A program made the translations under genes and the position numbers. Shown piece by piece: positions 12,399 to 17,313 of a DNA stretch of 33,561 nucleotides. The stretch covers positions 1 to 33,561 of the forward strand of contig JANQJV010000042.1 in assembly GCA_028281465.1 (NCBI GenBank), read 5' to 3'. The stretch is from Azospirillaceae bacterium (GTDB lineage: Bacteria > Pseudomonadota > Alphaproteobacteria > Azospirillales > Azospirillaceae). The notes under the pieces are model-generated. The model saw only the letters and a list, made by a program, of their open reading frames with translations, searched no databases and was not told where the DNA came from. The stretch's first letter is position 1. Each line of letters begins with the position of its first letter.

Positions 12399-15392
12399 TC
12401 AAAAGATAACCAGATTTCGGAATTGCCCTGTTCGCAAGAAGAGCGGCAGCCATGGCAGACGCCCTGACACCTGGTCGTCGTGTTCCAGATACTTGCTGTC
12501 TGGGCGATACCAACCGGGACACCACAGCGCTGTGTAGGTTGACGTCGGAACATTAAACGGCGTGACAGTCACGCCTCTCTTGTTCCCATACCCGACGACC
12601 CGATCGTCAACCGCCGTGAGCGAATTCTTGATGGCCTCCTCGGGAAAATCACGGCGACGCGCTCCCAGCATCAAGCCTCGACCAACCTTTGCCAGAAACT
12701 GCTCAAGATTCGGAGACGCATCGAACTGTAGTTCATCAAATTTTTTACGTGATCTCAGTCCGGCAAAGCGCATGCCGGCTTCATCACACGCTTTCTTTAT
12801 CATTTCTTCACCGTCGACCGAGGCACCATAGAAAACGAAATAGATATCACGCTCTCGGAGCTTTTGGAGTGCATCACCGTCCAAGGGCTGGCAAAATATG
12901 TTGCTATCCTTTTCGTCCGCGCCCAGCATGCCACAGATCGCTTTGATCTGCTTGGCTGCTTGAGTGCCGGAGGAAACATGATCATCGACAAACACGATCG
13001 GTTCTTGCGATCGTGGCTCCAATACTGCGTTGCGTAGACCTGAATGCACCTCAATACTAGAATTGTTTTCGAATAGCTTGTTAATGAACAATCGCACCAG
13101 GTGACCACTGCTCGGAGTAAAAGGAACGGCTAGAATGCGATTGCCAACCTCTTGCTGGAGCTGTAGGAGCAAACTAACTACCCCACCCTCAATCTCACTT
13201 CGGCCGAACATCTCTATATTCATAAGCAAATCTACCATTTCCCCCCTCAGCGAATATGGAAACTGCGATAGAAACACTCGAATGTGATGCCTATCTATCC
13301 GCCACTCCTGCTCCCCACTATATGCACCGCAACGCTCCAGAATACAATCAATCTTAGCTTCATCCCCTTGATATGGAAAAAGAAATGGTAAGTCGTCATA
13401 GTAACCCACTAAAGCTAGTTTACCTTGAAACTCCTCAAGCTGTGCTAAATTTGCGTGGCAGGCTCTAGAAGAAAAAGCAGTATCAAGAACGGGAAGAACC
13501 CACATTAAGAGGTCAACAGAGAACCCTGTCGTTCTTTCCCTTTTTTCATTTGAGTTTCCTTGTGGCTCGCTGTAGGTATACCTAAAAGGAACTGGATGTC
13601 TTCTTTTTGGGTGTGCACGTACTATGTCGATAAAGGCCCGCTGACATGCCAATAAGGCGATTTCCCGCCATTTGGAGTCGGTCAGAAGAACAGTTGTTTG
13701 GTGTGGAAGGTGGCCGGCATCAGTGTAGCTGGCATGCCTGAATTCGGATGCTATTACATCTTTGGAAACTGTAAGCACTCGGGCCTGCTTCAACATGGCA
13801 TCGTTCGTTTCCGGGCAAGGGATAATGCGCAGCGTTTCTGGAGCTGATCCAGCTGGCAATTGATCGCTAGTAGTACCAGCGCCCTCCAGCTTTCTGTAGA
13901 TGAGTTCACAGTGTTGCATTATCGGATTTATGACTTCATCAACATCATCAATTATCTCGACAACTTCACTCACCTCGGCCTTCACCATGCCACCAACTTG
14001 CTGCCAGACTGGGCATGATTTCTCGCGGACTGCAACATCACCCAGAACGGGTCTTATGACACTATTACCTATTATCGCTGCCTTCTTTGGCATTTGCCGA
14101 CGTCGTATAGCCCATGACATTCCGCTAACGTGGGAAACAGGGTGCTGGCAAAGTGCCTCTATCAAGCAATCTTCGGGGGTAGACCAGATTTTTAGCAGAT
14201 CTCGGAATTCCACATTGTACTTTCCAGCCTCATTCAATAGTGCAAAATAGTGACCCTCAACATTCCTGGTGAATGGATGCTGGTAGACCCGGCGATAAAG
14301 TGACAATCGACTATTGCCCATTTCAACAAATGTGTCACCCCCATGCTGATCAATGACAAATATCCGAACTGTATCGATATCATCCAAGCCACTTAAGCCC
14401 GATGCGAATGGGTCGCGAGATTTGTTGATGTCATAGACACCGGCACGCATGAAGACGCGCGGGATATCAAGACCCAAGGATATACGGCATGCATCTGCAT
14501 CTCGCTGCATATAATCGATCTTATCGGCATCGATCGACCCCGACAGTATCGATGGGAGAGCAAAATCTCCCTTGGTAATCCTATCGCCTAAAATTAGTGC
14601 TGATATGTAGTAAACATCATGAAGGCCGTGAGCGTCTCTGCTGCCAATTGTGACATCATAATACGACCTAAATCGATCGCTGACAAGCAGGGCGACCGCC
14701 AGCATCTCTGAAATCGGAGCCTTGCCGGTCGGTAGAATACTAGAACGCCCGTCATCAAATCCCTTATAATAATGGTGGAATTTATGCTTAAACTTCCCAA
14801 TCGTGAATGGGCCGATCATACAATGGAGCATGCCACTTTCTGCCCTCTCCTCTTCTGAATCCATTTCCATTTCATCATGTATCTGAAAGTATCTTTCAGA
14901 GGCGTGGGAAAATGGTCCATGGCCTATATCGTGCAATATGGCAGCATACCTTAGGTAGTCTTTCTCAGCATTGTCGAAGCTCGCAGCCTGAAGCTTCGCT
15001 GTTCCCAAGCTGGATTGCAGCGTCTTTGTCGTCTCGAATTCTTGCAGTAACCGACCAACAACCTCATAGACTCCCATGGAGTGAACAAAACGGGAGTGAT
15101 CAGCGGATGGGTAGGTAAAGGAGCTGAAGCCAAGCTGTTTAACTGATCGGAGACGTTGAAGTAAGGGACAGTTAACTAATGCAGCAGCCGAGGAGTCGAA
15201 TTCGATCATCCCCCAAACTCTATCTTTAACAGCTTGTGTTCGTGGCGGGGATTTACTGGCCTCTCTTACATACTCCTCTGTGAAACCAATTCTGTCGAAC
15301 GCCGAATTGAGAGAGGACGTCCAGCCATCCTCATCACTCAAAAAGTTCCCCCAGGCACGGAGTCGGGAGGGAAAGACGGACATTTCCATCAT
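12399..15392 (-). CDS. HD-domain (SAMHD1/dGTPase-like) protein with C-terminal phosphoribosyltransferase-like domain
   Basis: A 997-residue two-domain protein. Residues about 56-300 match the SAMHD1/dGTPase HD fold: LLQRLRSVKQLG (77-88), RFVHSMG with His104, LHDIGHGPFSH with His154-Asp155 and His158/His163, and DADKIDYMQRD with Asp290. The four expected metal ligands are therefore present. Such domains hydrolyse dNTPs, or less often other nucleotides. Residues about 700-997 resemble PRTase-like effectors: a PRPP-loop-type IVFVDDHVSSGTQ (799-811) after a hydrophobic strand, and a GYGN...W.PLFLR ending (934-987) that I associate with the PRTase-CE type in predicted conflict systems. The middle 380-700 is unassigned. 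The gene is visibly AT-richer than its neighbours, with many ATA, TTA and AGA codons. It starts 2 bp after the upstream gene (MM, 15392 or 15389) and has no strong ribosome site of its own, so it is probably coupled. Confidence 0.85.
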   Translation of the reverse strand: MMEMSVFPSRLRAWGNFLSDEDGWTSSLNSAFDRIGFTEEYVREASKSPPRTQAVKDRVWGMIEFDSSAAALVNCPLLQRLRSVKQLGFSSFTYPSADHSRFVHSMGVYEVVGRLLQEFETTKTLQSSLGTAKLQAASFDNAEKDYLRYAAILHDIGHGPFSHASERYFQIHDEMEMDSEEERAESGMLHCMIGPFTIGKFKHKFHHYYKGFDDGRSSILPTGKAPISEMLAVALLVSDRFRSYYDVTIGSRDAHGLHDVYYISALILGDRITKGDFALPSILSGSIDADKIDYMQRDADACRISLGLDIPRVFMRAGVYDINKSRDPFASGLSGLDDIDTVRIFVIDQHGGDTFVEMGNSRLSLYRRVYQHPFTRNVEGHYFALLNEAGKYNVEFRDLLKIWSTPEDCLIEALCQHPVSHVSGMSWAIRRRQMPKKAAIIGNSVIRPVLGDVAVREKSCPVWQQVGGMVKAEVSEVVEIIDDVDEVINPIMQHCELIYRKLEGAGTTSDQLPAGSAPETLRIIPCPETNDAMLKQARVLTVSKDVIASEFRHASYTDAGHLPHQTTVLLTDSKWREIALLACQRAFIDIVRAHPKRRHPVPFRYTYSEPQGNSNEKRERTTGFSVDLLMWVLPVLDTAFSSRACHANLAQLEEFQGKLALVGYYDDLPFLFPYQGDEAKIDCILERCGAYSGEQEWRIDRHHIRVFLSQFPYSLRGEMVDLLMNIEMFGRSEIEGGVVSLLLQLQQEVGNRILAVPFTPSSGHLVRLFINKLFENNSSIEVHSGLRNAVLEPRSQEPIVFVDDHVSSGTQAAKQIKAICGMLGADEKDSNIFCQPLDGDALQKLRERDIYFVFYGASVDGEEMIKKACDEAGMRFAGLRSRKKFDELQFDASPNLEQFLAKVGRGLMLGARRRDFPEEAIKNSLTAVDDRVVGYGNKRGVTVTPFNVPTSTYTALWCPGWYRPDSKYLEHDDQVSGRLPWLPLFLRTGQFRNLVIF

Positions 15393-15394
15393 GA

Positions 15395-15829
15395 CTATAG
15401 CGCCTGTCGTATTTTATTCGCTGAGTTTTCAACTATGCTCTGCCACTCTGGCTGTATTTGTTTTAACCGCTCAGTTGCAGACACTGGGTCTAGGGAAAGA
15501 TCGAGACTCACGTACTCTGGATTCCCAATGCGAATGAGACCTGGCTGTAACTTCCGGAATGTAGCCCACAAGGCATCATACGCTCCAGTGTTCGAATCAG
15601 CACTGATCTGGTCGATAATTCGCATGATCTCAACAGCGCGCCGTTCTCCCTTACTGACAGCGTCACGGTATTCGTCCTTCAGTCCGTCGAGAATCTCACT
15701 GAATGCTTTCTGAAGCCTTGGATTTTCTAGGGGAATTGACCGAACACCGTCACTCGCCAAACGAGCGACTACTGCCTTGCAGAAATCTCGAGTCGTGAAT
15801 TTCCCCGGTCCCCAAGATCGCCGTGCCAT
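15395..15829 (-). CDS. Small partner protein of the HD-PRTase gene, unknown family
   Basis: A 144-residue protein, probably mostly helical through residue 95 (an amphipathic FTTRDFCKAVVARL start, then DGLKDEYRDAVSKGERRAVEIM), with a short strand-like IGNPEYVSLDLSL stretch near 105-117 and a final helix. I do not recognise the family and see no enzymatic motif or membrane segment. The ATG at 15829 has AGGAGGGA at good spacing; an in-frame ATG at 15940 would add a poorly supported 37-residue leader. The stop is 2 bp before the HD-PRTase start, so the two are almost certainly one operon. Likely roles are adaptor, sensor or inhibitor of the large protein, all inferred from position. Base composition matches the large gene. 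Confidence 0.72.
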   Translation of the reverse strand: MARRSWGPGKFTTRDFCKAVVARLASDGVRSIPLENPRLQKAFSEILDGLKDEYRDAVSKGERRAVEIMRIIDQISADSNTGAYDALWATFRKLQPGLIRIGNPEYVSLDLSLDPVSATERLKQIQPEWQSIVENSANKIRQAL

Positions 15830-16162
15830 GGTTGCTGTCCCTCCTACACCGGGACGGCGTGTCCGTCCCAACTCTTCCATGGGGTGCAACGGCGCCCCAA
15901 GTGCCTCAAGAACAAAATACGAACATTGCGATCCATTCAACAGTTGTGCTGCCTACATCTTTACTTCTGTCCGGAAGCGTATCGCTGGCGAAGCGACTAT
16001 TTCAAGAAGCAATCTACCAAATAGGGAAATCCCTGTGTATAAAACCACAATATATTGGCCACCTGTGGATATATAGCATGATGCGACTCCATGCGCGGTC
16101 TTGATTGCCAGAAAGGGGGCTTTGACCATTCCAATCGAAGTGCAGATCCACTCGAGAGCTAC
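15830..16162. other. AT-rich spacer upstream of the HD-PRTase operon, candidate promoter zone
   Basis: I see no convincing gene here. The stretch 16018-16085 is strongly AT-rich, with TATATT and ATATATAG tracts and a CCACA...TGTGG inverted pair near 16045-16068. On the minus strand it lies about 200-250 bp ahead of the operon start. A possible -35-like TTGAAA lies near 16000. This is the most likely region for the operon's promoter, but no element can be fixed by eye. GC content rises again past about 16160, marking the right edge of the AT-rich island. Confidence 0.35.
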
Positions 16163-16547
16163 TCACAGTTCCATCTGACCAACGTCCAAACGACCCCAAT
16201 GCACACCCGACAGCCCTGCCAGTTGACAAAGCGAGCCGATATCGGGGAACTGCTCTAAGGTCGGGAAAGGAAAGCCATCGGGGTCTTCAGCCATTTCATA
16301 CGCATCTGGAAGCGTTGACCAACGCCCGCCCTCTTGCCCGCGCGGCGCATTCCGCGGCAGCGACATGCTTACCGTCCGCCAATGCGGATCCAAGAACAGC
16401 GATAGCATGAATGTCGCGGTGTCCGCCCCCCAGTCGCGCACTTCCGACGCAGGTTCAATCCCCGCGAACATCGAAATCCGTCACACACTCGGCAGTCACC
16501 GGCGAGGCCGGAATGAGCAGCAGTATCAGCGCAGCTTGGGCGACCAT
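16163..16547 (-). pseudogene. Frameshifted small exported protein, unknown family
   Basis: From an ATG at 16547, one frame gives a textbook signal peptide (a hydrophobic ALILLLIPAS core, an ASPVTA cleavage-like end) and stops at 16455 after 30 residues. The adjacent frame, open from 16471 to 16163, continues with a plausible soluble sequence containing VRDWGADTATFMLSLFLDPHWRTV and ending in HWGRLDVGQMEL. Joining the two near 16460 gives one secreted protein of about 125 residues, so I read this as a single gene broken by one frameshift. The 102-codon downstream piece alone could be annotated as a hypothetical protein. The function is unknown. Confidence 0.38.
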
Positions 16548-16788: not shown

Positions 16789-17040
16789 TTGCCGGGCCGA
16801 CACATCACCGACAGCCAGATGAGGCTCACCATGAAGTTCCGTCAGACCGACGGTGTGGCGATCGCCGCCGCCAAGTCGGGGTTCAGCCCGGCAAGCGGAT
16901 ACCGCCTGGAGGCGGATGACCGCATGCCATCCCAGAAGAAGCAGCCACGGGGGCGGCGCAGAGAGGACCCCTTGGTGGAGGTTTGGGACGAAGAAGTCGC
17001 TCCCATGCTGATTGCCGCACCGGCACTACCGCCGGTGCCG
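16789..17040 (+). mobile_element. IS21-family transposase (IstA) N-terminal stub
   Basis: About 80 codons from a TTG at 16789 encode the N-terminus of an IstA-type transposase: ITDSQMRLTMKFRQ, AAAKSGFS, a YRLEADDRMPSQKK stretch, and RGRRREDPLVEVWDEEVAPML. This is the helix-turn-helix region that binds element ends. Homology stops at about 17040; the catalytic DDE core and IstB are absent. It is a non-functional remnant marking past insertion or recombination at the edge of the HD-PRTase island. I could not identify terminal repeats. Confidence 0.72.
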
Positions 17041-17122
17041 CTCCAGCACAATGCCTGGACAAGGCTGCGGGCCGTGGCGAAACGCGGCGCCCCCCAAATC
17101 GACTGAAAACGCCCCCCCGGCC

Positions 17123-17313
17123 GAAAGCGCACGCAGGCCTATAGATCTCGTCCTTGCCGTAGGATAGCGCCAGCGCCCGGCACAACCGCACGACGGCGGC
17201 GCCCGGCCGGTCTCCAGGCAGCTCCGATGGTGCTGCGACGTCCCGGCGCGTTCGGCCAGCGCCGTCTGCGACAGGCCTCGGCTGCGCCGTAGCGCGGCCA
17301 ACGCCGCACCACG
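17123..17313 (-). pseudogene. XRE/MmyB-type regulator fragment, frameshifted
   Basis: On the minus strand one frame (17313-17194) reads LRRSRGLSQTALAERAG...LETGRAPP, a recognisable XRE helix-turn-helix. The continuation, AVVRLCRALALSYGKDEIYRPACAF, is in another frame (about 17203-17123). Together they give the DNA-binding domain of an MmyB-like regulator, whose ligand-binding C-terminal domain is lost at the IS21 stub. It is divergent from the alpha/beta hydrolase remnant, a common pairing for this family, so both were probably once a regulator-target module. Confidence 0.5.

Follow-up and report, generated by a model that had tools for sequence, protein, structure and literature searches.

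The window analysed here is a stretch of 33,561 nucleotides from an Azospirillaceae bacterium, in which two adjacent genes are read one after the other from the minus strand. The first, P0001 (15395–15829), runs from an ATG start through 144 codons to a TAG stop, and carries the ribosome site AGGAGGG (15839–15845, minus strand) 10 nt 5' of its ATG. A gap of 2 bp separates its stop from the ATG of the second gene, P0002 (12399–15392), which encodes a SAMHD1-like HD protein of 997 residues fused to a PRTase-CE domain. No good ribosome site is found in the bases upstream of the large gene, GACAGGCGCTATAGTC. An initial annotation of this DNA had described the same layout, with a strong ribosome site for the small gene, an end 2 bp ahead of the large one and no good site for the latter, and both the bases and the coordinates agree with it. 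The partner frame is open further, to a TTG at 15940 (181 residues); the ATG is favoured over it by the ribosome site and by the match to the family profile, which starts at 15826. A profile built without P0001 and its four nearest relatives recovered it at E = 1.7e-7 among 7213 open reading frames, so that it is not a chance reading frame: the small gene is real. Its close or overlapping order with the HD gene is seen again in relatives.

The pair is present as a single copy in the 6.3-Mb genome. It lies within a low-GC stretch (12500–16499, 46–55% GC versus 61–69% in the host DNA around it), flanked in high-GC host DNA by a cytochrome c1 gene on one side and an alpha/beta hydrolase gene on the other. 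This low GC content between high-GC host genes indicates that the pair is probably an acquired two-gene cassette. An integration site was also considered for this locus and rejected, as a tRNA is absent and none of the flanking repeats is convincing. Separately, the high-GC flank has at 17026–17301 of the minus strand what may be left of an Xre-like helix-turn-helix gene.

In P0002, Pfam places an HD domain (PF01966) at residues 101–175 (14868–15092, minus strand) and a PRTase-CE domain (PF24390) at residues 706–987 (12432–13277, minus strand), the latter with 63 bits against a cut-off of 27. The nearest solved proteins by sequence are the HD protein 2o6i and SAMHD1. The AlphaFold2 model of P0002 (pLDDT 80.6) matches SAMHD1 chains over about 550–640 alignment columns in Foldseek, and these chains are nearly all of the best 50 rows (E 5e-15 to 3e-13); from such fold matches an approximate SAMHD1-like core can be assigned to residues 16–600 or thereabouts (13593–15347, minus strand). 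The metal ligands of human SAMHD1, His167, His206, Asp207 and Asp311 (PMC7045340), align with H104, H154, D155 and D290 of P0002, respectively. These four residues are invariant in 84 aligned cores, the invariance of D290 being partly selected because DADK belonged to the HD search pattern. In the PRTase-CE domain, which is marked by catalytic DD and SG residues, D803, D804 and G809 are invariant in 23 aligned sequences, and the DD pair at 803–804 is intact. Judging from the fold match, the invariant HD metal residues and the PRTase DD pair, P0002 is a SAMHD1-like enzyme with an added PRTase domain, and both putative active sites look intact. With SAMHD1 and the EF1143-type dNTPases (2o6i, 9mr6, 4zwe) it shares the HD residues and about 570 fold columns, but it differs from them in the C-terminal PRTase-CE domain and in the dedicated small partner.

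The partner itself had been called unrecognised. This stands insofar as P0001 belongs to no Pfam, NCBIfam or PADLOC family, but it is not an orphan, as it is a member of an unnamed family that adjoins HD genes. One PADLOC match to PtuB (E 0.0036, in 1 of 68 members only) was taken as chance, and SocA_Panacea (PF13274) was discarded after giving no Pfam match in the 68 partners and none in genomes G000 and G821. Scanning the genome contigs with the single sequence of P0001 as query found nothing. The relatives were gathered via the HD protein, from plasmids, virus contigs and genomes; 80 genome loci were picked by an HD pattern and the partner profile was made from their small upstream reading frames. 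A partner homologue adjoins the HD gene in 68 of these 80 loci, usually directly upstream. At 11 loci (genome loci and the plasmid locus L037) the match is independent of the seed, with E ≤ 1.3e-13, and divergent (L116, L175) and downstream (L134) placements are included among them. Holding out the whole 35%-identity cluster still allowed recovery of 60 of 67 partners. No match at E ≤ 0.001 was obtained from the 2648 reading frames of 82 control loci, comprising HD genes outside the group, standalone PRTase-CE genes and low-scoring PRTase matches.

Over the genome, plasmid and viral loci, the partner is present in all 37 HD-effector fusions, 26 of them HD-PRTase proteins and 11 HD proteins with a nuclease-like C-terminus, a class called by eye from a GGxxD...ENK motif and with no nuclease match in Pfam. 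No intact HD-effector fusion without a partner was seen in these sets. On a tree of 84 cores, the partner accompanies 26/26 HD-PRTase, 11/11 HD-nuclease-like and 36 HD-only enzymes, and is absent in 11 HD-only enzymes; nine of these fall in a single Clostridia clade, in which the absence reads as loss. Of the 80 loci, 12 lack a partner (11 related HD-only enzymes and one enzyme cut off by its contig end), so the HD core can be tolerated without it. The core of the window groups with those of Solimonas, Rhizobium, Microvirga and another alphaproteobacterium (support 100/99), and HD-only pairs are scattered across Bacillota, Acidobacteriota, Spirochaetota and the former Deltaproteobacteria. Partner and HD distances are correlated (r = 0.87, 62 pairs, 0 of 2000 permutations as high), which shows joint travel rather than contact, given that shared descent of a fixed pair produces it too.

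The initial annotation had proposed a dedicated subunit of the HD-PRTase protein. Constant pairing strongly supports this, since all 26 HD-PRTase genes have the partner, and so does the lack of homologues apart from the large gene. With one genome per species, and bearing in mind that very divergent copies can be missed, the profile search found no orphan copy in 348 other Pseudomonadota genomes and none in 249 Bacillota genomes, in which the partner occurs twice, once in the centre genome and once next to an HD gene. In 25 genomes that have the pair, the profile matched exactly once per genome, and in five genomes with a lone HD gene it matched nothing. However, naming the HD-PRTase protein as the object of the subunit is too narrow, as HD-nuclease-like and HD-only enzymes are also paired. 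Moreover, the profile matches no reading frame beside 17 standalone PRTase-CE genes, by which a retron-type winged-helix partner was rejected; it is thus the SAMHD1-like core, rather than the PRTase, that the partner accompanies. Very probably, the partner serves as a dedicated regulatory subunit for bacterial SAMHD1-like enzymes and not for one fusion alone, and the finding of the family is more general than the first framing. The novelty lies in this unnamed family and in how constantly it accompanies SAMHD1-like cores, whose effector domains are exchangeable. The kinds of components (HD, PRTase-CE, winged-helix-like regulators) are already known; the definitions of PRTase-CE and HD-CE reportedly come from Burroughs and Aravind in 2020, and the partner/HD pair may have been noted before in that work.

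The partner had also been described as helical and without enzyme motifs. Its AlphaFold2 model (pLDDT 90.7, from 65 sequences with the plasmid-locus rows left out) has six helices and a few short strands, and the Pfam scan gave no match, in line with both statements. The elements follow the order helix, strand, two helices, helix, two strands, two helices, which fits a winged helix (H-S-H-H-S-wing-S); the Foldseek matches are not significant, either in PDB or in BFVD, and no DarG chain is among the best 50 rows listed. Besides Met1, the sole near-invariant residues are N103-P104 (15518–15523, minus strand), kept in 63 of 65 relatives and located between the last two strands of the model.

A remote relationship comes from profile comparison. 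The two best control matches of the partner profile, sub-threshold at E 0.03, are YwgA-like proteins adjoining other HD genes. Aligned by hhalign to a profile of 11 YwgA/DarG-C sequences, whose own match to the DarG chain in 7yk3 reaches 5e-15, the partner family attains a score of 36.4 over about 55 columns (P 5.9e-6, probability 85%), whereas 60 shuffled decoys reach at most 13.1 and the reversed profile 14.2. Most of this signal stems from the partners that go with HD-only enzymes (P 1e-4); taken by themselves, the HD-PRTase partners give no significant match (P 0.25). The likeness to DarTG and YwgA coexists with differences: the subgroup of P0001 alone has no match, the partner family has an N-P motif and a C-terminal half of its own, and P0001, with its 144 residues, has no Pfam domain, no macrodomain and no DarT, its neighbour being an HD-PRTase. 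We consider this kinship a lead for the mechanism, not a sign of membership. As a parallel pairing, YwgA-like proteins (RLQK..Y.L ... GPYS) adjoin six other SAMHD1-like HD genes that lack the partner (L005:601-1170, L230:1426-2094, L231:1447-1986, L232:1444-2016, L090:3388-3900 and L092:2943-3422).

We think that the best explanation as a whole, with a probability of roughly one half, is an obligate regulatory subunit that binds the HD core and most likely holds the enzyme inactive until a trigger. It builds on the directly observed gene order, constant pairing, co-divergence, conserved active sites and lack of orphans in the searched genomes. The partner would be made just ahead of the SAMHD1-like enzyme and would bind the HD core common to HD-only, HD-nuclease-like and HD-PRTase proteins; binding to the core is the most likely option because the partner accompanies it in three architectures and is never missing from the effector fusions found. 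Contact with protein rather than with DNA is suggested by the mostly acidic character of the family (median pI 5.2, 6% of members above pI 8), unlike P0001 itself, which is basic (pI 9.2). The bound partner would most likely keep the enzyme inactive and might release it on a trigger, which would probably be infection or altered nucleotide pools. Once free, the core would cleave dNTPs, and the PRTase or nuclease-like domain joined to it could add a second attack, giving the pair a possible role in defence.

Adaptor, sensor and inhibitor had all been offered as roles for the partner, and the remote match to the DarG domain leans to the last. The C-terminal domain of DarG blocks the toxin DarT by direct binding, so that the remote relative is itself a direct inhibitor. 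In addition, the partner is intact next to damaged HD genes, disrupted by a nonsense codon (L040/L154), an IS insertion (L038) or a frame break (L141), cases that are few and come partly from metagenome assemblies; together with the lack of intact partnerless fusions, they favour inhibition over activation. Clover provides a third argument, as its HD dGTPase CloA, an enzyme of defence, is toxic alone and is restrained by the nucleotidyltransferase CloB (PMC12265719). The system at hand is similarly formed by two genes, for a putative HD dNTP hydrolase and a partner that presumably restrains it. Yet CloB works as an enzyme that synthesises an inhibitory nucleotide, whereas the partner is of another family, with no nucleotidyltransferase domain in the Pfam scan of 68 partners, and a PRTase-CE domain is not described for CloA.

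The same observations bear on the idea of an activating or sensing subunit, which would assemble or switch on the core, for example by recognising a phage component. Its presence with every HD-effector fusion in the sets and its co-divergence with the core are as expected of an obligate activator, but such a protein would be needless beside a broken HD gene, and the inhibitory nature of DarG-C also goes against it; we find this role unlikely. An equally doubtful view is about what the pair is for, and is compatible with either direction of control: the pair would regulate dNTP pools in normal growth, and only the PRTase and nuclease-like fusions would have later turned to defence. The wide phylogenetic scatter of HD-only pairs agrees with it, and so do the neighbours of the effector fusions, which are mixed and form no clear defence set. 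Nevertheless, the distribution described above (2 of 249 Bacillota, 0 of 348 other Pseudomonadota) is too sporadic for housekeeping, several copies of the pair are in prophage or plasmid DNA, and that of the window is in a low-GC stretch. The defence context is, for its part, suggestive only, and consists of the prophage and plasmid copies and of a few genes in otherwise mixed surroundings, namely integrases, one relaxase and one nuclease of the DpnII type. Finally, a winged-helix repressor of its own operon without direct enzyme control, like many antitoxins, would agree with the order of helices and strands, the first position in the pair and the basic pI of P0001, but it is improbable in view of the acidic family, of a partner-HD correlation that exceeds the need of an operon regulator, and of the separate MerR-like regulator in 5 of 11 nuclease-like-C-terminus loci and in L038, where the HD gene is truncated.

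Taking the inhibitory subunit as the preferred reading, a broader proposal can be put forward only tentatively: a large class of SAMHD1-like enzymes in bacteria might have the unnamed antitoxin-like family as its standing regulator, and the pair might be a platform for exchanged PRTase or nuclease-like effectors, building anti-phage systems in which control is exerted by a protein that inhibits a dNTPase directly. In animals, SAMHD1 controls dNTPs and restricts viruses, and a protein partner of its bacterial relatives would reveal how the cell keeps such enzymes safe. One small gene offers a handle on a class of putative defence systems, the PRTase effectors of which are without known chemistry, and the profile of its family is a means of finding further such systems. 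PRTase effectors have been described in retrons (PMC12548924) and in a DprA-PRTase system that gives protection against phages (PMC9122126); in both cases the mode of action of the PRTase is described as unknown. Type III-A retrons encode PRTase and winged-helix proteins with a reverse transcriptase (PMC12548924). The present pair resembles them in encoding a PRTase effector together with a winged-helix-like protein, and differs in the presence of the HD core and in the lack of a reverse transcriptase match among the flanking reading frames scanned.

Several neighbouring genes are worth recording. No conserved third gene was found among the neighbours of the pair, except for the MerR-like gene, which is divergent and precedes the partner in six loci: L035:4885-5352, L037:4924-5364, L102:2056-2469, L121 and L101, all of the nuclease-like class, plus L038:4983-5444. 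It occurs at none of the HD-PRTase loci. On a Desulfosarcina plasmid, genes of the nucleotidyltransferase and ThiF-like kinds, reminiscent of CBASS (L036:11325-13098), lie about 3 kb downstream of the pair. An 866-residue protein at L105:2915-5515 joins a kinase-like part to an HD domain, without a partner. A prophage-like contig (L074:3480-8603) carries in a row the partner, an HD-only enzyme, an integrase and a reverse-transcriptase-like reading frame of 524 residues.
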